A stretch of DNA of 64,000 bases, taken from positions 41,275 through 105,274 of the IMG/VR virus record IMGVR_UViG_3300001450_010303; one strand, given 5' to 3'. The position numbers and the translations under genes are program-made. Under the pieces are notes generated by a model that saw only the letters and a list, made by a program, of their open reading frames with translations, had not been told where the DNA came from and did no database searches. Position 1 is the stretch's first letter. Every line of letters starts with the position of its first letter. Of this stretch, positions 15,079-64,000 are shown one piece after another. The DNA is from a virus.

Positions 15079-15406
15079 AATAATAACATCTATACTTTTA
15101 GTTATATCAACAATATTTAGTGTCGGTATGCTTGTTTATACAAGGACAGTAATAGTAAAACTGTTGTCTGTATCAGAAGAATTAGGAGACTTGCAGGAGA
15201 TGATTAATATTTTCACCAACCACACTAGAGATGTTTATGAAATGGATATGTTTTACGGTGACGAAACACTTAAAGGGTTGCTTGAACATGCAATATCCCT
15301 GAACGAACATATGGCTACATTTGAATATATCTATAATTTAACAGAAGAAGCAGAAGAAAAGGAGACAGATGAAGCAGACAACAGAGCCGCTCAAGAAGAA
15401 GCGTAA
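15065..15406 (+). CDS. Small membrane-anchored phage protein of unknown function
   Basis: 113 residues. Residues 6-28 (IITSILLVISTIFSVGMLVY) form one clear N-terminal membrane helix, with the remainder predicted soluble and acidic, ending in a Glu-rich tail (EEAEEKETDEADN). Proteins of this build occur in T4-like phages, but I do not recognise a named function. It overlaps the sigma factor gene by 38 nt, so the two are probably co-translated. Confidence 0.6.
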   Translation: MSRLEIITSILLVISTIFSVGMLVYTRTVIVKLLSVSEELGDLQEMINIFTNHTRDVYEMDMFYGDETLKGLLEHAISLNEHMATFEYIYNLTEEAEEKETDEADNRAAQEEA

Positions 15407-16073
15407 GAAAAATTATTATTTCACCAAAGATCATGAAGACGCAATAGTACGATACTCAATTACTAATTGCAAAAAAGAAAGGACAGATTTATATGTAAAT
15501 TGGATCCAGCCGGCATTCAACGAAATGGTTGATAAAATTGTTTTTACGTATAAATTTACTAATTTGCCAAATATAGATTATCTTAGAGATGAATGCAAAA
15601 TTTGGTTAATGACAATTCTTGATAAATATGACCAATCAAAAGGCTCCAAGGCCTTTTCATATTTTAGTGTTATCACGAAGAATTGGTTTATTCATAAGGT
15701 TAAAAAACAACAAAAGCGCAACAGAAGAGAAATTGATTTTGGAACAATATCAAAGTCATATGAAGAACAATACTTATCTACCAACGAATCATATGTAACC
15801 GAGAGAGAAGAACAAGAATTTTGGGATCTCTTCTATAATGAGTTAAAATCATGGGACGCAGCCCAGATGAAAGATAATGATTTGAGGGTGTATAAAGCTA
15901 TAACCATACTTTTTGAGTCAAAAGAAGATATTGAAATTTTTAATAAGAAAGCTATTTATCTGTACCTGCGAGAAATTACTGGATTAAACACCAAGCAAGT
16001 GGTAAATTCACTAAAGAAATTTAGAAAGAAGTACTCTAATTTCAAGCAAGACTGGGAGAGCGGCGACTTATGA
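15369..16073 (+). CDS. gp55: Late-transcription sigma factor, T4 gp55-like
   Basis: 234 residues (T4 gp55 has 185). The YDQSKGSKAFSYFSVITKNW segment, followed by FIHKVKK, is the reduced sigma region 2 of gp55-type factors; in the phage family it contacts the beta' coiled coil and the TATAAATA -10 element. A very basic N-terminus (KKKRKKNYYF) and a C-terminal helix bundle (NTKQVVNSLKKFRKKY) flank it. It should direct host RNA polymerase to late virion promoters with a sliding-clamp co-activator encoded elsewhere. The gene sits between the sugar operon and the virion block, on the same strand. Confidence 0.82.
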   Translation: MKQTTEPLKKKRKKNYYFTKDHEDAIVRYSITNCKKERTDLYVNWIQPAFNEMVDKIVFTYKFTNLPNIDYLRDECKIWLMTILDKYDQSKGSKAFSYFSVITKNWFIHKVKKQQKRNRREIDFGTISKSYEEQYLSTNESYVTEREEQEFWDLFYNELKSWDAAQMKDNDLRVYKAITILFESKEDIEIFNKKAIYLYLREITGLNTKQVVNSLKKFRKKYSNFKQDWESGDL

Positions 16074-18659: not shown

Positions 18660-21600
18660 ATGGCGAATGAATCAAAATTTTTAAAATGGCAAGACGAAGA
18701 TCACGATGGCCTTATAGATGTATGTGATGATGTAGTTGATGTTGAAGCAAATAAATGCTTAAATTGCTCCCCTAATCCGACAGCCATCAAAGTAGATTGG
18801 AAAAAGAAAACAGTAGAAGAGCCGTTCTTAAATGAGAGAACATGTGAATATCAAGTAACAGTTGTCACACCCTATACAACCGTAGTTGATGAATCATTGA
18901 TAGGTTCTGAAGATGAAAGCTCTCAAGAGGTGATAGACTCTTTGAGAGACAGATATGAAGAATTTGTAGATGATGTTATTGAGTCTTTAATCGTTTTTTA
19001 CGATAAAGAAGATAGTGGAGCATCAAGAACAAAGATAAAAGAAGCAATAAAGTATAGTAAGTATTGGCTGGATCCCCGTCCCAACTCACGACTTAAACTA
19101 CTCTTTTCGGTTCCGTTCGACACACTGTTTGATATAGGCCCATATAACTCAGAAGATGAATATGAAGAGCCAAAGCCAGGAGATATCACAGTCTCCTACA
19201 ACGCCGGAGATTTATCCACAAAAATGATTAGAATCCGGAAGGGATTGAATCTTTACGGACGATACCTAAAAGTATATCGAGCTATTGATGGGGGTAATTT
19301 ATTCTTCAAGGAAGACAACAGGATCTTCAACCTCGAAGACTATGGAGACTCCACACTTTTTACAAGCTCTATCATGTCAAGCTTGATAGATTACTTAAAC
19401 TCGTACTTAGAATCAAAAGGTCTTAATCTACCGGGCGTCGGCGGCATACTATTTTTTGCTGACAAGATTACAAAATTAGAATTTAAATTTAATAATTATC
19501 AGCCACAGTCGCTAAAAGTGTGGACTGAATCTTGTGGAGAAAAGCCGCTATTTTATAATAAGAAAAGATTAAGAGGGTTTATAAAATCCCCACCTTGGAA
19601 AGATAAAACAGCAGTCGCATATTTCGTACAATTATACCAGATGGAAGCCTCGCTGTCCGCGAGATCCCAAATACCATGGGAAGAATTTGTAATACAATAC
19701 ACATATCCAACAATTTATTCTTCACTTAAAACAGAAGAGGAAGAAGAATCCAGACAGGTGATGGGTTGTATAGGCGAAGCGCTAGAACAAGAAGCAAAAG
19801 AACTTGGTCAAGATATCTTAGATGAAGTGTTCGACCTCGGAGACGCCGTCGCCTATAAATTCAGAAAGAGTATATGCCAATCAGAAAATTCAGAATCGAG
19901 ACAAGATGAAATAAATGTTGGTTTAATATATGATCCAGACACCAATACCAGACAAAACATCTTTGCCATGGCCCAAATGCAGGCACTTAAGGAGCTAGAC
20001 GAAAGCGATCAAATATTCACACAAATGTGCGCTAGAATTCTATCGTCCATGACTCCCTTTGGTTCAGCGCAGAAGAAGATGGATCAAATGTGGGAGTTTG
20101 GGTTCGAAAGAATAAAGGCATGCGGACTTCTTGATTTGTTACTGGATGCTATCAAATGTTTGATGGGAGGTCTTACGTTTGAAGAAGCTATGGCTAGCAT
20201 GATCAAGAGCGCCCTTAAAGCAATGTCGATCGAAAACTTCGGAGATTTATTTGTAGGAATCCCTCCCGAAAAACAAAATGAACTCGACGCGTTAGTTAAA
20301 AAGAAATTAGAGTCCGGTGATATTTTCCCAGAAGGTAGTACAAATCAGCAAATTTCAAATATAATGGCCTCTGGCACCTCATACTCTAAGCCATGGGAAA
20401 TCCAATCTGTAATAGACCAAGAAAGAAACAGTAAAAAAGAGGGCGCGTATGAGGGCTCAGTAGCCCCGCCAGCCTCTTATTCAAAAGAAGCAGCGGAGGC
20501 ATCAACCGCGACCAGAAGAACACTGGCTCAACAGTTTGATGTAGCCGGCAACGCCGAAGACGAATTATCACCTGATATCGTTATGGAAGCATATGTAATG
20601 GCACTGATAGAGGTATATTCTGACAATCTGTTAGCATTGGTGGATGAGCTTAACAAATTCCCGGGCGCGCAAATAATAGCCGGAATAATAGCAATGTTGG
20701 ATTGCCCTATGCCGCCTCTGTTTAATCCCGATCTGCTTAGCTTTATTAAAGATATCGAGCTACCGTTTTGTCGTGATCTGTCAGAGATTAGAACGATTAG
20801 AATGGAAAACCCATTTACTTGGATCCCAAAAATAAAAGATATAATGAACGCGCTGTGGGAAGCAATAAAATTTGCTGTACAGCAGCTTATTATGGCAATT
20901 GTTTTAAAATTGATGGTTAAAATATGTCAGATAATTGGAGACGCAATCTGTAAGGCGTTAGAAACAACAGGCAAATTAGCCGCCGCCGTACCGGCGGTGT
21001 TACAAGGAAGCACCACTTTTAAGGAAGTTGTAGGAGACGCTATCTGCGGACCATTAGCCGATGACGCACAAGTAGAAGATACTATGGTTGAAATGATGGC
21101 CTCTATGGGAGCCGGATCAGCCGCCTTAGCCAATCGAGATCAAGTATTAAGATTCACAGAAGATTTATCTTCCTCTACCACAAGGGCAGAGCTGATAGAA
21201 GGTTTTCTCGGAAATCCATCACAGGATTTGATAGATATCGGGACGCAACTTCTGGAGTTTGAATATCCAGAATTGGGCGAAGCTATGCCCACCCCACAAT
21301 CATTTGGAAGATTTATCACCAACGTTGGTAATGTAATGCCGGGCGATTTTAAAAAACAACTAAGAGAAATGTTAGATGAATCCCCGGAACTTGAAGGCCT
21401 TCCAGCAAACCCCACATTATGTGCAACTCAAGAGCAGATAGACAACTTTAATGAGTTGCGCTGTACCCTATTAGACGGCCGCGCTACAAAAGAACAATGC
21501 GAACAGATGTTAGCTGATAATAAGAGTGATCTGTTAGATGATTTATCATCTCTTGGGGATGTGCTCCAGGGCGGCATACCAAACTATATCAACAGTAACA

Positions 21601-57124: not shown

Positions 57125-57691
57125 ATGAAAATAAAAAACGGAAATACAGTAAGCGTGCATTACAAAGGCACACTAAACGATGGAACAGAATTTGATAATT
57201 CTAGAACGCGAGGGACGCCATTAAATTTCAAGGTCGGTTCCGGAAAAATGATCCGCGGATTTGATGGAGCGTGTGTTGGCATGACTACGGGCCAAACAAA
57301 AACAGTTTCGATAAACCCAGCGGATGCTTATGGAGAGAGAAATCCAAAAGCACTTCAGCCAGTACCTAAAAATGCTTTCGGGCCGGATTTTAACTTCCAA
57401 GTTGGCCAACCAGTTCAAGGTAACGGCCCACAAGGTCCGTTTCTGGCTCTGATCCACGCACTTGAAAATGATATGGTAGTTCTAGATATGAATCATCCTT
57501 TGGCTGGCAAAGAGCTAACCTTTGAGATTGAGGTGGTGTCGGTGGAGAATAGCGAAACAACAACAGCTGCATCAAGCTGGAGTGCTACGATGAAGAAAGC
57601 AGAATTGTTGCAAATCGCAAAAGATAACAATCTTGATGTTACCACCAAAACAACCAAAGCTAAAATCGTGGAAGCTCTTCAAGCTTTGTAG
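57125..57691 (+). CDS. FKBP-type peptidyl-prolyl isomerase with C-terminal SAP-like domain
   Basis: 188 residues. Residues 1-140 are an FKBP domain of the SlyD-like type: VSVHYKGTLNDGTEFDNSR, PLNFKVGSGKMIRGFD and ADAYGERNPKAL, with an inserted flap segment (about 70-120) of the kind that gives SlyD chaperone activity. A Thr/Ser linker (ETTTAASSW) joins a C-terminal 35-residue helix-extension-helix (MKKAELLQIAKDNNLDV, then AKIVEALQAL), which fits SAP/HeH or Rho-N DNA- or RNA-binding domains. The protein would fold phage proteins, with the SAP-like part tethering it to nucleic acid. Its own strong promoter lies upstream. Confidence 0.85.
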   Translation: MKIKNGNTVSVHYKGTLNDGTEFDNSRTRGTPLNFKVGSGKMIRGFDGACVGMTTGQTKTVSINPADAYGERNPKALQPVPKNAFGPDFNFQVGQPVQGNGPQGPFLALIHALENDMVVLDMNHPLAGKELTFEIEVVSVENSETTTAASSWSATMKKAELLQIAKDNNLDVTTKTTKAKIVEALQAL

Positions 57692-57743: not shown

Positions 57744-58682
57744 ATGAATATCAAAGCCGCAAAGAAGATTCTTAATGAAACGCTTGGAGACAGCACAAAC
57801 AAAGGCGCCGAACTTCTTTTCGCGTGCCCGTCATGTGATCATAGAAAACGTAAATTTTCAGTTAACATTGTTAAAAATGTTTTTAAATGCTGGATTTGTG
57901 ATTATCGCGGTCGGAATATTAGGCGTGTTGTGCGTCGGTTTAGCGGCCATAACCAATTGGCGGCGTGGGACGCAATATTCGGGCGTCAAGATATTGAAAG
58001 GTTTGCTGACCTCTTTATGGAGGGAGGCGTGGAAGAACGCCGAGAGAAAGTGGAACTCCCGCCAGAATTCACAACCCTCTGCTCAGAACACCAACCAGCA
58101 ACAGCCAGTTACGCATTACGATATCTCTACAAAAGAGGAGTAAGTAAAGCCGACATCCTCAAATGGAAGATCGGATATTGTTTCGGTGGCGAATATAGGA
58201 GCAGGATCATTATCCCGTCTTTCGACGACGATGGTGACTGCTCCTATTTCATTGCGAGATCATATAACGGTGACTCATATAAATATAAGAACCCACCCGT
58301 ATCAAAAGACATTGTATTTAATGAGCTATTTATTAACTGGAACGAAGACCTAACTATTGTAGAAGGAGTCTTTGATGCACTGGTCGCAGGAAATGCTGTT
58401 CCCATTCTGGGCTCAACACTTAGATCGAACTCCGATCTTATCCGCAAAATTGTCCTCAACGACACACCCATTTACATCGCCCTCGACCCAGACGCGAGAA
58501 AGAAAGAAAACAGGATCATTCAGATGCTTCTTAAATATGATATTGAAATGTATAAAATAGATGTAAGTGGTTATGAAGATGTAGGTTCAATGCCAAAAGA
58601 TGTCTTCCGGGAAAGAAAGAATAACGCTTCCTTTATCGATAGGGACGACTATTTACTGTTGAATTTGTTATCAGCAGTCTAA
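57744..58682 (+). CDS. gp61: DNA primase, DnaG/T4 gp61-like
   Basis: 312 residues (T4 gp61 has 342). A CHC2-type zinc ribbon with C28/C31 and C49/C52 is followed by the RNA polymerase core helix region and a TOPRIM domain with TIVEGVFDAL (E207) and ALDPDA (D248, D250). It synthesises RNA primers for the lagging strand, normally with the replicative helicase gp41, which is not in this window. Its own consensus promoter lies 18 nt upstream of the ATG. The frame 57775-58143 read in another phase is a shadow. Confidence 0.9.
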   Translation: MNIKAAKKILNETLGDSTNKGAELLFACPSCDHRKRKFSVNIVKNVFKCWICDYRGRNIRRVVRRFSGHNQLAAWDAIFGRQDIERFADLFMEGGVEERREKVELPPEFTTLCSEHQPATASYALRYLYKRGVSKADILKWKIGYCFGGEYRSRIIIPSFDDDGDCSYFIARSYNGDSYKYKNPPVSKDIVFNELFINWNEDLTIVEGVFDALVAGNAVPILGSTLRSNSDLIRKIVLNDTPIYIALDPDARKKENRIIQMLLKYDIEMYKIDVSGYEDVGSMPKDVFRERKNNASFIDRDDYLLLNLLSAV

Positions 58683-58691
58683 GGGGAACTT

Positions 58692-59111
58692 ATGAAAATT
58701 ACAACAGCAAGATTAAAAGAGATCATTAAAGAAGAGATAGAGGCAAATGCTAAACTCCGCCAAGAGTCCCTATCAGAAATCACCCCACAGATGATAGCCC
58801 AGTTTGCCTGGGAAGATGGAATACGAATTATAGATTTTGGAGATCCCAATAAAGAGCCGAAGCTTAGCTCCGACGATAAAAAGCGTATCGCTCAAATCAT
58901 TGCCGATGAGGCCGAAGTTGAGATCAATAGCTGGGGAGATGCGACCGATCGCAACATTACCCTAGATTTTAAAAATTTCGAAAGTAAAGTCTTTTCAGCG
59001 TTGTGGCATAAACACAAGCAAGCAGCCGAGCGTGAACTCCCCCAATACAATGATGAACGCATCGACGATGGGGGTCCGTATGATCCCGCGGCTGAAGAAG
59101 CAGGATATTAA
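58692..59111 (+). CDS. Unknown protein with N-terminal IIKEE tag
   Basis: 139 residues with AAGGGGA ahead of the ATG. The first 15 residues, MKITTARLKEIIKEE, form an amphipathic basic helix that recurs in the proteins at 59148 and 63475, which are otherwise unrelated to it. The rest is acidic and helical (DDKKRIAQIIADEAEVEI) with a disordered end. No family recognised. The tag carries an I-x-E site like those cut by T4 prohead protease, so an internal head protein is one possibility (inference). Confidence 0.6.
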   Translation: MKITTARLKEIIKEEIEANAKLRQESLSEITPQMIAQFAWEDGIRIIDFGDPNKEPKLSSDDKKRIAQIIADEAEVEINSWGDATDRNITLDFKNFESKVFSALWHKHKQAAERELPQYNDERIDDGGPYDPAAEEAGY

Positions 59112-59147
59112 AATGACCTGGCCGGCAAGGAAAGGTTTAAAGGTATA

Positions 59148-60059
59148 ATGCAGATCACAGAACACAGATTGCGACAGATCATTATAGAAGAGGCACAAGT
59201 CCGTTTCATTAACGAGATTATAGAAGAAGAATTGTATGGCGTTCTTTTCGAAAGTGATGAAGATATTGAAAGCAAATGGAAGAACAGTCAAACATTTCGT
59301 ACGAAAGTTAAAAATGCTTTAAGAAATTTTGATGAACTACCATCCATAAAAAAGAAAACAGTTATCATGATTTTGGGCGCCCTCGGCGCTCTTGGAACAC
59401 AGCTGACGGCCGAATTCGCTCATGATGATCAGAAGAGAGAAATTAAAACTCAACTTAGGAAAGATAAGGAGGCATACGAAGACTACCGTTTTGGTACAGT
59501 CGAAGATATTAAGCATTTTAGAGATGCCGCAACATCAGAAGGTTCTGTCATTGACAAAAATGATGCCGAGGGTATCAAAAACGTAAAACAAAAGTTTCTG
59601 AAACGCGGTGTAGAACTCGCCCCAATCATTGCAGATAATGCTATAGCCTTGACAACAGGGACAAACGACTTTGTATACACACCAGCAGACACCATGACCG
59701 ATGAAGAGTGGATGCCATTTGTTGGAATGACAAAAAAAGCATGGGAGGCCATAGTCCGAACGTGGTTACTGGATACCGACGGACGAGAGAGACTAGAGAA
59801 GTTTATTGGGACGTCTGAAAAAACCCAAGCAGTATTTTGGGCTTATGACTCAGACGGACAACTATTTTCATTTGCCGACGACTCCGGACAATATATGTGG
59901 TTGCCGCCAGAGTGGTCGGTTGCCTATGAAGTTATTCAAAAGAACAAAGCCCGGGCCGGCAACTCCGAAAAAAACGACAGTGATTTGAATATTTTTGGAG
60001 ATTCTGGCATAGGTGTATGGAAAGAAACTTTGAGAAAGTACTTGACATCTCTCCCATAA
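59148..60059 (+). CDS. Unknown protein with N-terminal IIIEE tag and one hydrophobic segment
   Basis: 303 residues. The N-terminus MQITEHRLRQIIIEE matches the tag of the proteins at 58692 and 63475. Residues about 72-92 (VIMILGALGALGTQLTAEF) could be a membrane or buried helix, followed by a charged coiled region and a C-terminal domain with WEAIVRTWLLDTDGRERL and YMWLPPEWSVAYEVI. No known family. The stop codon lies within the spacer of the next promoter. Confidence 0.6.
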   Translation: MQITEHRLRQIIIEEAQVRFINEIIEEELYGVLFESDEDIESKWKNSQTFRTKVKNALRNFDELPSIKKKTVIMILGALGALGTQLTAEFAHDDQKREIKTQLRKDKEAYEDYRFGTVEDIKHFRDAATSEGSVIDKNDAEGIKNVKQKFLKRGVELAPIIADNAIALTTGTNDFVYTPADTMTDEEWMPFVGMTKKAWEAIVRTWLLDTDGRERLEKFIGTSEKTQAVFWAYDSDGQLFSFADDSGQYMWLPPEWSVAYEVIQKNKARAGNSEKNDSDLNIFGDSGIGVWKETLRKYLTSLP

Positions 60060-60070
60060 GGGAGTATATT
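60042..60070 (+). promoter_or_regulatory. Sigma70-type promoter for the small membrane protein, with inverted repeat in the spacer
   Basis: TTGACA (60042-60047), a 17-bp spacer and TATATT (60065-60070); the start is expected near 60077. The spacer holds CTCCC-ATAA-GGGAG (60051-60064), an exact 5-bp inverted repeat that could be an operator or chance. The promoter overlaps the end of the 59148 gene. Confidence 0.72.
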
Positions 60071-60089
60071 TAATGTATAAGGAGCAATT

Positions 60090-60248
60090 ATGTTTAACTT
60101 TAAGAATGCTGTTTCAACCTTTCTCGACAAAAAAGTATTAGGTAACGTGACTTTGATGGAGTCTGGTATTCTGATGTCTATGTTTGTTGGATTTGTTTTA
60201 GTTGTGAATACATTAAGCTATATTGTTGCTTGTAACATCGCAAGCTAA
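60090..60248 (+). CDS. Small single-pass membrane protein (52 aa)
   Basis: A 52-residue frame with AAGGAG at 60079-60084, 6 nt before ATG 60090. Residues 1-24 are polar and basic (MFNFKNAVSTFLDKKVLGNV), and residues 27-49 (ILMSMFVGFVLVVNTLSYIV) form one clear membrane helix ending near a Cys. It sits between a strong promoter and a strong hairpin, that is, a complete monocistronic unit. Function unknown; a host-envelope or superinfection role would be a guess. Confidence 0.72.
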   Translation: MFNFKNAVSTFLDKKVLGNVTLMESGILMSMFVGFVLVVNTLSYIVACNIAS

Positions 60249-60251
60249 TTT

Positions 60252-60292
60252 AAACACTTCTACTATCATTTATTAGTGGAGGTGTTTGTTTA
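60252..60292 (+). terminator. Stem-loop terminator after the small membrane protein gene
   Basis: A 14-bp stem pairs 60252-60265 with 60274-60287 (two G-U pairs in RNA), with an 8-nt loop and GTTTAT after the stem. It fits an intrinsic terminator with a weak U tract. It ends only 17 nt before the GTG start at 60305, so it could also limit read-through or translation into the Mre11-Rad50 gene. Confidence 0.65.
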
Positions 60293-60304
60293 TAAGGAGA
60301 GTAT

Positions 60305-63300
60305 GTGAGCATTAAAATCGCACACGTATCGGACATTCACGTCCGGAAATTAAAGTACCACAAAGAGTACCGCGTAGTATTCGAACGATTATACAAGAAG
60401 TTACGCGAGTTAAAACCAGATATTATTGTCAACACCGGAGACACTTTCCACACTAAGTTGGATTTATCTCCGGAAGCAATACGCATGATGAGCGAGTTGT
60501 TTGCTAAGTTGGCAGATATTGCTCCGTATTATATGATCTTGGGAAACCACGATATGAACTTGAAAAACGGTGCTAGGCTAGATGCTATCACGCCGATCGT
60601 CGAGAACTTAAAACACCCAAACTTACATTTCATCAAAAATACAGAAACCATTGAAGTCGCAGACGGCATCGACCTGCGTGTGCTTTCTATTGTTGATCCA
60701 GAGAACTGGCCCGAGACACTACCAGATGACCGCGTAAATATCGCACTCTATCATGGATCTATCGCGGGTTCAACGACTGACACCGGTTGGGTGATGACTC
60801 ACGGTGACATCGACATAGACACACTTGCCAAATATGATTATGGTTTGTTAGGTGACATTCACAAGACACACCAGAAGATTGATAACGACGGCAAGTGCGC
60901 TTATCCTGGTTCGCTGATTCAACAGAACCACGGGGAGACTCCAGATAAGGGTTTCCTATTATGGGAGATTGAAGATAAAGATACATTCACGTGTAAGCAT
61001 CATCAGGTTGAAAACCCGAAACCGTTCATCACTATTCAGCTAACTCCAAAGGGCAAAATGCCCCGCCGAGCAGATCCTCCAAAGGGCGCACGTTTGCGTT
61101 TGGTGAGTAATAACAACTTGCCACTTAGTACGATGAAGCGAGCAATTGATATTGCGAAGCATCGCTTTAAACCGGAGGTAGTCACTTTCTTAAACAGAGC
61201 GGCGGGAGAGCGTGGAAATGTTGAGGATATCACAGACACACTAAAGACAGAAAACTTGCGAGATATTGATGTCCAAGAAGAATTGATGGATGAATATCTA
61301 AAAGACTATCAAGCCGACGCATCAACGATAGAAATGGTTTATGAGTTAAATAGAAAGTATAAGAAGCAAGTAGAGGACACAGAGGAGATATCTCGGAATG
61401 TGAATTGGAAACTATCTAATTTTGAGTTCGACAACTTATTCAATTACGGAGAAGATAATAGTGTTTCATTTGATAAACTTAATGGGATCGTGGGCATTTT
61501 TGGAAAGAACTATTCTGGGAAGAGCAGTATTGTTGATGGTCTGCTTTGGACTGTTTTTAATACAACCTCGAAAAATGAAAGGAAGAATGTTAATGTTATT
61601 AACCAGAATCGGCCTTCGTGCCGAGGAAAAGTAACAATTGAGGTTGGCCATAATATCTACACGATCGAAAGAACAGCCGAGAAATACACGAAGAAATTGA
61701 AAGGTGAGGTGACTGAAGAAGCCAAGACTGATCTGAACTTCGAAGTTCTTGATAAAACCACCGATGAAATCCGCTCACTAAACGGCCTCAGCCGGCCCCA
61801 AACAGACGCAAACATCCGCAAGCACTTCGGCACCATTGACGACTTCTTGGTGTCTTCACTAGCGTCTCAACACGGAGCATTAGCATTTATTGACGAAGGC
61901 TCGACACGGCGTAAAGAAATCATTGCTAAGTTCTTAGATTTAGAGGTGTTTGAGCAAAAGTTTAAGCTGGCTAAGGAAGACAGTTCTGATCTTAAAGGCG
62001 CCCTAAAACGCTTGGAGTCACGTGAGTATGAAGAAGAAGCGAAAGAAGCGACTGAGGAATTGGATTCAAAGCGCCAAACATTGTTTGTTCATGAGGGAAC
62101 TTGCGAGGTGTTAGACCAGAAAATCATTCAACTAACAACAGAATGTGTGAAGCTCAATGATATGATCGAGTCAATACCTGCGGAGATCATTGACATCGTC
62201 GCGACAAGAAAAGATATCAAACAGAAACAAGCGAGAGTGAAATCATTAACCAGCGAGAACAAAAAGAGTGAAATAGATCTTGGAGTGAAGAACGGATTAT
62301 ACGAGAAGGTCGAGAAGTTTATAGCGGGTGTAGATATTGATACACTTACTGAAACCCAGAACAATATCAATAAGCTAGAAGGCGATAAGCAAACACACGA
62401 ACACAACCTGGCCATATTAATCACGGAGATCAATGACATTGAAAAGAAATCACATCTTCTTGATGATATTCCATGCGGAACGCAGTTTTCAACATGTAAA
62501 TTTATCAGTGATGCGAATGTCGCTGTCGCAAATTTATCACATGTTGAAAACGATAGAGACGATATCTCCAAGAACATCAAGGAAATAGAGAGCGACATCA
62601 ACGACTTGGGGCCAGTAGAAGTCGCAAGACAAATAGATCAACACACACTAATAGTTGAGAAGAGAAACGATATCGCAAATGATATTGCGAGTATTAACCT
62701 ATCAATAGAAAGAAATACGTCCTCTATCGATCGTATAGGCTATGAACTGAAAGAGTTGGAGAGCAAAAAGCAAGAATATGATGAGAACAAAGAAGCGATC
62801 GAAAACCTTGAAGAACTAAATGTAGAACTGGGCGTTTGTGAAGAGAATCTTACATCCGCAAGACTGCAATGTACTGAGTGCCGAGAGCAAACGCTAGAAC
62901 TATATAAGAGTGTAGGCTCTCTCGAACAAAAGGTCGAGACAATCGAAAATCAAAAACAAGAATACATAGATTTACAGGAGGAATATTCAGCTTATGATCT
63001 TTACATGCGTTGTATGCATACATCTGGGATTGCTTATGATATTATTAAACGGAAGCTACCGGTCATCAACCAAGAAGTCGCGAAAGTCCTTGCCAATATT
63101 GTCGAGTTTGAAGTCTTCTTCGAAGATAGTGGAAAGAAATTTGACATATTTATCAAGCACCCAAGGCATGAACCCCGCCCAATTGAAATGGCATCAGGAG
63201 CAGAGAAATCTTTGGCTGCCATAGCCATTCGTTTGGCCTTGTTGGGAGTATCTTCGTTGCCTAAATCTGATCTTTTCGCCCTCGATGAGCCAGGAACTGC

Positions 63301-63463
63301 CTTAGATGAAACAAATATGGAGGGTTTTATTAGGATCTTGGAACTAATTAAAGTGTATTTTAAGAATGTTTTGTTGATCTCGCACCTTGATTCGCTCAAA
63401 GACTGTGTTGATATGCAAATTGAGATAGATAAAAAAGACGGATACGCAAGAGTAAATCAATAG
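60305..63463 (+). CDS. Fused Mre11-Rad50 (SbcD-SbcC; T4 gp47-gp46) recombination nuclease
   Basis: 1052 residues, GTG start with AAGGAGA upstream. Residues 1-330 are a metallophosphoesterase nuclease: HVSDIH (D10, H12), GDTFH (D46), GNHD (N81-D83), YHGSI and LGDIHKTH. From about 360 an SMC-like ATPase begins: Walker A GKNYSGKSS at 400-408, coiled-coil arms (about 560-910) with C724 and C731 at the apex (CGTQFSTC), a signature ASGAEKSLAAIAIRL and Walker B LFALDEPGTALD (D994, E995). T4 and most bacteria keep the two subunits as separate genes. The complex resects DNA ends to start recombination-dependent replication. The hook has CX6C rather than the usual CxxC. Confidence 0.9.
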   Translation: MSIKIAHVSDIHVRKLKYHKEYRVVFERLYKKLRELKPDIIVNTGDTFHTKLDLSPEAIRMMSELFAKLADIAPYYMILGNHDMNLKNGARLDAITPIVENLKHPNLHFIKNTETIEVADGIDLRVLSIVDPENWPETLPDDRVNIALYHGSIAGSTTDTGWVMTHGDIDIDTLAKYDYGLLGDIHKTHQKIDNDGKCAYPGSLIQQNHGETPDKGFLLWEIEDKDTFTCKHHQVENPKPFITIQLTPKGKMPRRADPPKGARLRLVSNNNLPLSTMKRAIDIAKHRFKPEVVTFLNRAAGERGNVEDITDTLKTENLRDIDVQEELMDEYLKDYQADASTIEMVYELNRKYKKQVEDTEEISRNVNWKLSNFEFDNLFNYGEDNSVSFDKLNGIVGIFGKNYSGKSSIVDGLLWTVFNTTSKNERKNVNVINQNRPSCRGKVTIEVGHNIYTIERTAEKYTKKLKGEVTEEAKTDLNFEVLDKTTDEIRSLNGLSRPQTDANIRKHFGTIDDFLVSSLASQHGALAFIDEGSTRRKEIIAKFLDLEVFEQKFKLAKEDSSDLKGALKRLESREYEEEAKEATEELDSKRQTLFVHEGTCEVLDQKIIQLTTECVKLNDMIESIPAEIIDIVATRKDIKQKQARVKSLTSENKKSEIDLGVKNGLYEKVEKFIAGVDIDTLTETQNNINKLEGDKQTHEHNLAILITEINDIEKKSHLLDDIPCGTQFSTCKFISDANVAVANLSHVENDRDDISKNIKEIESDINDLGPVEVARQIDQHTLIVEKRNDIANDIASINLSIERNTSSIDRIGYELKELESKKQEYDENKEAIENLEELNVELGVCEENLTSARLQCTECREQTLELYKSVGSLEQKVETIENQKQEYIDLQEEYSAYDLYMRCMHTSGIAYDIIKRKLPVINQEVAKVLANIVEFEVFFEDSGKKFDIFIKHPRHEPRPIEMASGAEKSLAAIAIRLALLGVSSLPKSDLFALDEPGTALDETNMEGFIRILELIKVYFKNVLLISHLDSLKDCVDMQIEIDKKDGYARVNQ

Positions 63464-63474
63464 GAGATTACAAA

Positions 63475-63822
63475 ATGAAGGTAACCAAGAGACAACTTAA
63501 ACAAATTATCAAAGAAGAGCTAGAGGCGGTATTAGACGAAAGGTTTACGCTGCCTGCTCAAGCAAAAGATATGACTGCATCAGGACCAATGGGGACAAAA
63601 CAAAAGGCGAACCAAGAACGCCACCTAGCGCGCAAGAATGCCAAAGCCAACGAGGCAGATTTCGCCGCCAACTCCACCAAGGAAAATTGTCAACAGCTAT
63701 CTGCAGCTTCGAGGAAGGCCTGGAGCAACATCGAGACCGATACCAGCGCGCATTGGACTTATACGAGCGCCGAAGAGGGCATGAAGAAATATAAATGCAA
63801 GCAAAAATTTGGAATCGAGTAG
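63475..63822 (+). CDS. Unknown protein with N-terminal IIKEE tag
   Basis: 115 residues with AGGAG ahead of the ATG. The N-terminus MKVTKRQLKQIIKEELEAVL is the third copy of the tag found at 58692 and 59148. The rest is Ala/Lys/Asn-rich and polar with two Cys, with no known domain. Small, basic and tagged, it fits the profile of T4-like internal proteins, which is inference. Confidence 0.6.
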   Translation: MKVTKRQLKQIIKEELEAVLDERFTLPAQAKDMTASGPMGTKQKANQERHLARKNAKANEADFAANSTKENCQQLSAASRKAWSNIETDTSAHWTYTSAEEGMKKYKCKQKFGIE

Positions 63823-63833
63823 GAGATTAAACA

Positions 63834-64000
63834 ATGTCAGACGAAAACGACGATAAAAACGAATTTGATTTTCTGCCTCCCGCAGAACCACCTCCCGCGT
63901 TTGCGCAGGAAAAAGACAGCTATCACGAATCAGTAGAAGCAGAAGACTTTGGTATGGTAGAGGACTTCGGATTACAGATGGAATACTCTGATGAAGATTT
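63834..64000 (+). CDS. Acidic hypothetical protein, cut by right window edge
   Basis: It starts at ATG 63834 with AGGAG upstream and runs out of the window after 55 codons. The visible part is strongly acidic and Pro-rich (DFLPPAEPPPAFAQEKD; VEAEDFGMVEDFG) and looks disordered. It does not carry the N-terminal tag. No family can be assigned from this fragment. Confidence 0.55.
   Translation, partial: MSDENDDKNEFDFLPPAEPPPAFAQEKDSYHESVEAEDFGMVEDFGLQMEYSDED

Follow-up and report, generated by a model that had tools for sequence, protein, structure and literature searches.

The window analysed here, the final 64 kb of the linear IMG/VR record G000 (105,274 bases), carries three intact open reading frames whose products start with MKITTARLKEIIKEE (58692), MQITEHRLRQIIIEE (59148) and MKVTKRQLKQIIKEE (63475), respectively (Table 1). 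The first-pass annotation had described a common N-terminus on these proteins, M-[KQ]-[IV]-T-x-x-[RQ]-L-[KR]-x-I-I-x-E-E, with the triplet I-x-E in each; both observations are confirmed, the likeness being limited to residues 1-15 and the triplet falling at I12-x-E14. This N-terminus is denoted here the class II tag. Each of the three genes is preceded closely on its 5' side by a Shine-Dalgarno-like stretch, recognized by eye. No enrichment of the T4-type late promoter TATAAATA was observed in the window; its nearest copy lies about 400 bases upstream of 58692, within the primase gene. At 57125-57691, the window also encodes an FKBP-type peptidyl-prolyl isomerase (Pfam, 1.4e-23); its C-terminal extension weakly resembles phage endonuclease VII and Arc-like profiles. 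Directly 3' of the third tagged gene, a gene for an FtsZ/tubulin-like GTPase starts and runs off the window end (63834-64000); its homologue in the related record G014 (59170-60003) shows about 86% identity over the part present in both and has a match to Pfam Tubulin (PF00091; 3e-8).

Table 1. Tagged genes, their tags and the adjacent untagged genes in the window (the slash marks the predicted cleavage point)
Feature	Position	Strand	Size or extent	N-terminus	Remarks
Tagged protein 1	58692..59111	+	139 aa	MKITTARLKEIIKE/EIEAN...	Homologue in L444 keeps tag and body; linker diverged
Class II tag, protein 1	58692..58733	+	residues 1-14		Predicted cleavage after Glu14; candidate second site L27-S28-E29
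Tagged protein 2	59148..60059	+	303 aa	MQITEHRLRQIIIE/EAQVR...	
Class II tag, protein 2	59148..59189	+	residues 1-14		
Tagged protein 3	63475..63822	+	115 aa	MKVTKRQLKQIIKE/ELEAVLDE...	
Class II tag, protein 3	63475..63516	+	residues 1-14		Candidate second site L20-D21-E22
DnaG-type primase	57744..58682	+			Untagged; precedes the tagged genes (syntenic marker)
SbcCD-like nuclease/ATPase fusion	60305..63463	+			Untagged; separates tagged genes 2 and 3 (syntenic marker)

In BLASTP comparisons, the alignment of 58692 with 63475 (E=6e-5) is confined to residues 1-18, and after removal of the first 18 residues no pair of the three proteins aligns better than E=4.5. Scored with a position profile of class II that was trained on other contigs only, 58692, 59148 and 63475 reach 40.5, 28.1 and 51.7 bits, respectively, against -6 bits for the next best of the 2,120 candidate N-termini of the contig; in 1.1 Mb of random viral DNA, the best matches of this profile were two overlapping contigs (one multi-copy phage). 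Given these scores, the likeness of the three tags is not due to chance. Identical tag residues are often specified by different codons (the same codon is used at 5 of 10 shared residues in 58692 and 63475, 3 of 8 in 59148 and 63475, and 7 of 9 in 58692 and 59148), which indicates that conservation and selection act at the level of the peptide. Neither Pfam nor PHROGs yielded a convincing function for the rest of the proteins (hereinafter bodies). The viral scan returned no relatives of the 59148 body; a weak homologue of this protein (E=2e-5), also tagged, occupies the same genomic slot in G014. The AlphaFold models of 59148 and 58692 (mean pLDDT of 41 and 59, respectively) are too poor for a fold search, and the tag is modelled, with low confidence, as a helix.

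The suggestion that the tag could be used to find more such proteins was borne out: six are encoded in the contig (both classes taken together), 3 to 15 in each of the five relatives scanned, and 34 on a single 306-kb contig. The scan of the whole record for the class II pattern, which the first-pass annotation had proposed, returned the three proteins of the window and none elsewhere in G000, along with three proteins that carry a second, 14-residue tag, MKLLLENWRxFLxE (class I), at contig positions 15529, 19638 and 20060, outside the window. Shorter class I relatives are also present in G000, for example, MNRSWSAFLTE in a NUDIX protein at contig position 15087 (Pfam NUDIX, 2.4e-21). Two adjacent open reading frames that adjoin the class I genes (G000 18920-19622, L002) encode, judged by eye, look-alikes of IscU/NifU-type and A-type Fe-S cluster proteins. 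Pattern scans of IMG/VR returned at least 120 stretches for each tag, the number of tagged open reading frames per stretch reaching 4 or 5 among the matches listed, whereas the class II pattern was found in 84,980 prokaryote genomes on only 10 stretches of seven contigs, all of them metagenome-assembled. On one of these contigs (G085 C5, NHDW01000006.1; 305,838 bases, binned as Methylococcaceae), a gp21 gene is accompanied by 34 class I or class II tagged proteins that represent 33 body clusters, 22 of the proteins being encoded within 20 kb. This contig is phage-like and apparently misbinned in a bacterial metagenome-assembled genome. The tag thus belongs to viruses. Among cultured phages, tblastn searches with the bare tags retrieved nothing for class I and a single weak match for class II (E=7, in the uncultured phage LR756508). 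RM378 and Mel-JY01, the nearest cultured relatives examined, encode gp21 and gp23 and carry no such tags in the head regions read. No description of these tags was found in the open-access literature searched.

Four relatives, G005 (203 kb), G010 (155 kb), G013 (147 kb) and G014 (146 kb), are syntenic with G000, and the order primase, class II or class II-like gene(s), SbcCD, tagged gene, FtsZ-like gene is common to G000, G010 and G014. The gene directly 3' of SbcCD carries a class II tag in these three records and a class I tag in G005. Neither PF03420 (gp21) nor PF07068 (gp23) was detected in the 105,274 bases of G000, but its alignment to G010 and G014 places its end about 11 kb short of the gp21 gene and the head cluster, and past this point the syntenic relatives encode a T4-type prohead protease (gp21) and capsid protein (gp23); accordingly, the presence of both genes in this phage is inferred from synteny. 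The gp21, scaffold and gp23 genes are predicted to lie no more than about 25 kb beyond position 64000. Downstream in G010, the order is further tagged genes, terminase, portal, one class I and two class II genes, gp21, conserved small proteins, scaffold and gp23. PF03420 is present in 21 of the 32 tag-bearing records, as is, likewise, PF07068 (21/32); among records of at least 100 kb, PF03420 was found in 19 of 24 tag-bearing ones versus 1 of 9 drawn at random (Fisher p=7e-4), although, given that the tag-bearing phages are related, this co-occurrence shows that the machinery exists and not that the tag uses it. All but two of the class II tags in G005, G010, G014 and G028 are encoded no more than 17 kb upstream of gp21, and most of the tags of G013 lie at least 80 kb from it.

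Several other features of the gp21 neighbourhood were recorded. The N-termini of the gp21 homologues themselves (MKLLREYYELCEGG) were considered as class I tags and rejected because 220 of 25,103 random N-termini score equally high. A small protein encoded near gp21 starts with MKKSELKKVIKPLVKECIHEVL or a similar sequence (G014 70992-71381, G010 132091-132522, and also in G005, G013 and G028); it may carry a class II-like helix devoid of the standard site and is possibly a core protein. Small basic proteins near gp21 in G014 (71388-71630) and G010 (132531-132779) resemble, by eye, ribosomal protein bS21, which in Microcystis phage Mel-JY01 is annotated beside the protease (compare PMC9723584).

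The ends of the tags have the appearance of a protease site. In tags that were collected without selection on residues 13-16, [LIVM]xE occurs within residues 12-16 in 59 of 59 class II and 16 of 18 class I sequences, compared with 1.5-1.7% per position in the bodies. On the 306-kb contig, E14 is conserved in 91% of the tags and E15 in 44%, residue 15 being E, A, S, V or T; because Glu14 is conserved and the following residue is variable, Glu14 is singled out as the predicted P1 residue. The motifs [LI][KR]x[IL][IV]xE and Wxx[FYW][LIVM]xE are enriched at N-termini over internal positions 18-fold and 22-fold, respectively. A second [LIV]xE, with Glu at residues 19-30, is present in 184 of 302 class II proteins versus 65 of 302 in a control stretch; class I shows no such excess (35/184, the same as in the control stretch). 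Around residue 60, the gp23 homologues contain LL[RK]E or VL[RK]E, a site of the same kind as that cut in T4 gp23, from which the first 65 residues are removed (PMC9958956) and in which the sequence at the cut position is FLTE.

Cleavage is not the only conceivable fate of such a peptide: the tag could bind the scaffold, the portal or the tail and bring the protein into the virion as a docking helix, without being a protease substrate. The amphipathic, helix-like character of the N-terminus is compatible with this explanation, as are the minority of tags that lack Glu14 and the separability of the two functions in T4, where Asp at position 10 of the capsid-targeting sequence (CTS) stops processing but not targeting (PMC9026906). 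However, Glu14 and the hydrophobic residue two positions earlier rank among the best conserved residues of the tags, later residues vary more, in most of the class I tags without Glu14 an [LIV]xE is displaced by one or two residues towards the C-terminus, and the gp23 homologues bear the same kind of site, so that docking without proteolysis appears improbable.

The spacing phi-x-x-phi-phi-x-E, common to both tags, recurs in T4 IPII and IPIII (MKTYQEFIAE), Alt (MELITELFDE), gp24 (MAKINELLRE) and the gp23 site, but not in full in IPI, gp21, gp22 or gp67, and taken alone it also occurs in about 1-3% of the open reading frames without either tag. Thus, Y4-F7-I8-E10 of IPIII correspond to L8-I11-I12-E14 in class II and W8-F11-L12-E14 in class I (residues 8-14 of the tags); in IPIII, residues 4 and 7 are targeting determinants and residues 8 and 10 determine processing (PMC9026906). 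By inspection, the tags share with MKTYQEFIAE this spacing and the terminal Glu, and no alignable sequence homology; the tags would therefore work like a CTS and are not presented as members of the T4 CTS family. As in T4, a short N-terminal peptide with a hydrophobic-x-Glu end is attached to unlike proteins, in a clade that encodes a gp21-type protease and a gp23-type capsid protein (21/32 records, G000 itself not among them), and the bodies form a hypervariable set with enzymes among its members, much as the internal proteins and Alt do in T4. The T-even internal proteins are a highly diverse set with the conserved CTS as their only common part (PMC3012670); IPI is an inhibitor of GmrSD, and the phage requires IPIII on one wild E. 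coli strain (PMC9391042). The differences are the length of the peptide (10 residues in T4 versus 14 in classes I and II), the existence here of two sequence classes plus the short W-x-x-F-L-x-E forms, and the number of tagged proteins, a handful in T4 versus three to dozens per genome here. The prohead proteases of the giant phages phiKZ and SPN3US also cut N-terminal propeptides of head proteins C-terminal to Glu, and SPN3US gp53 and gp54 have identical short N-termini on diverged proteins (PMC5694885); in SPN3US, however, the motif is A-x-E, several propeptides exceed 100 residues, and gp53 and gp54 are paralogues, whereas the class I and class II bodies are mostly unrelated.

An alternative is a role of the tag outside the virion, either as a docking helix that binds an enzyme of the host or the phage (such as RNA polymerase, the ribosome or a protease) or as an N-degron, in the takeover of the host inside the cell. 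Many bodies are small, lack an assigned function or are enzymatic, and class I genes lie mostly at least 80 kb from gp21 in all relatives (about 80-110 kb upstream of it in G005, G010 and G013), as could be expected under such a role; nevertheless, it leaves unexplained why the tags end in [LIVM]xE, why class II genes cluster upstream of gp21, why T4 IPII, IPIII, Alt and gp24 have a matching spacing, and why the tags are nearly absent from cellular genomes, and we regard it as quite unlikely.

The bodies behind the tags are extremely diverse. Single-linkage clustering (E<1e-4) of the 460 complete tagged proteins from the retrieved loci gives 323 body clusters, including 259 singletons. Most bodies contain no recognizable domain, and Pfam, PHROGs and PADLOC yielded few cargo domains overall; those detected are P-loop/zeta-toxin-like kinases, NUDIX, peptidase M23, GNAT, 2H-type phosphodiesterase, 5'-nucleotidase and pentapeptide repeats. 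In two cases, homologous bodies carry tags of different classes, namely P-loop kinase bodies (L225, class I, and L092, class II; E=5e-22) and 2H-phosphoesterase-like bodies (L146, class I, and L115, class II; E=9e-14). The two classes of tags thus look exchangeable between bodies, and this natural exchange on homologous bodies is suggestive, but only suggestive, of a tag that might by itself direct a foreign protein into the head. Such swaps imply that N-termini do get exchanged, but the idea that the unit spread by recombination is a 5' DNA cassette (promoter, ribosome-binding site and start region), with an incidental likeness of the peptides, is hardly tenable considering that synonymous codons differ (the 45-nt tags share 26-32 bases), that the regions immediately 5' of the three start codons are unlike, and that two unlike peptides have the same phi-x-x-phi-phi-x-E spacing. 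A few class I tags (G000 19638, L003:638-1060; L192, L208 and L220) are followed by a signal-peptide-like hydrophobic segment, in some cases with an A-x-A end; removal of the tag might expose this segment near the N-terminus, with export after delivery.

The reading favoured here, with a probability of about 0.78, is that the tags are CTS of the T4 type, carried by hypervariable head cargo and cut off by gp21 after Glu14; docking, packaging, cleavage and injection are inferred from the sequences and by analogy with T4. The presence of gp21 and gp23 in the relatives, [LIVM]xE at the tag end, the attachment of the tag to many unrelated bodies and the LL[RK]E site of gp23 all support the capsid-targeting signal proposed in the first-pass annotation; almost all of the consequences of this idea that could be checked by computation were borne out. 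Under the CTS reading, the amphipathic N-terminal peptide, with L8, I11 and I12 on one face, would dock the protein onto the scaffolding core during head assembly, and the gp21-type prohead protease would then cut after Glu14 (I12-x-E14), perhaps with a second cut at [LIV]-x-E near residue 22 in many class II proteins. The released body would stay alongside the DNA inside the head and probably accompany it into the host. The three bodies in the window would thus be different cargo under one address label, with MKLLLENWRxFLxE and the shorter W-x-x-F-L-x-E forms as a second label that has the same spacing and presumably does the same job. Among the proteins delivered by T4 are IPI, which inhibits restriction, and Alt, which modifies RNA polymerase.

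This best explanation reaches beyond the original proposal in that it would cover two main tag classes, apparently exchangeable, on hundreds of proteins across a large uncultured group. More tentatively, and with somewhat less than even odds, a large group of uncultured T4-like and jumbo phages might possess a multi-label head-loading system, with at least two CTS classes, possibly read by different core components, and a cargo of effectors and counter-defence enzymes (P-loop kinases, NUDIX, 2H phosphoesterase-like, HAD, peptidases) that numbers dozens, is interchangeable and is delivered at infection. If the CTS reading is correct, a 14-residue signature marks proteins so far classed as hypothetical, hundreds of them in abundant uncultured phages, as predicted to be packaged in the head and probably injected, with mature N-termini predicted to start at residue 15; the delivered proteins of a phage could then be catalogued from its genome sequence, and the tags would provide new CTS labels for putting cargo into phage heads.
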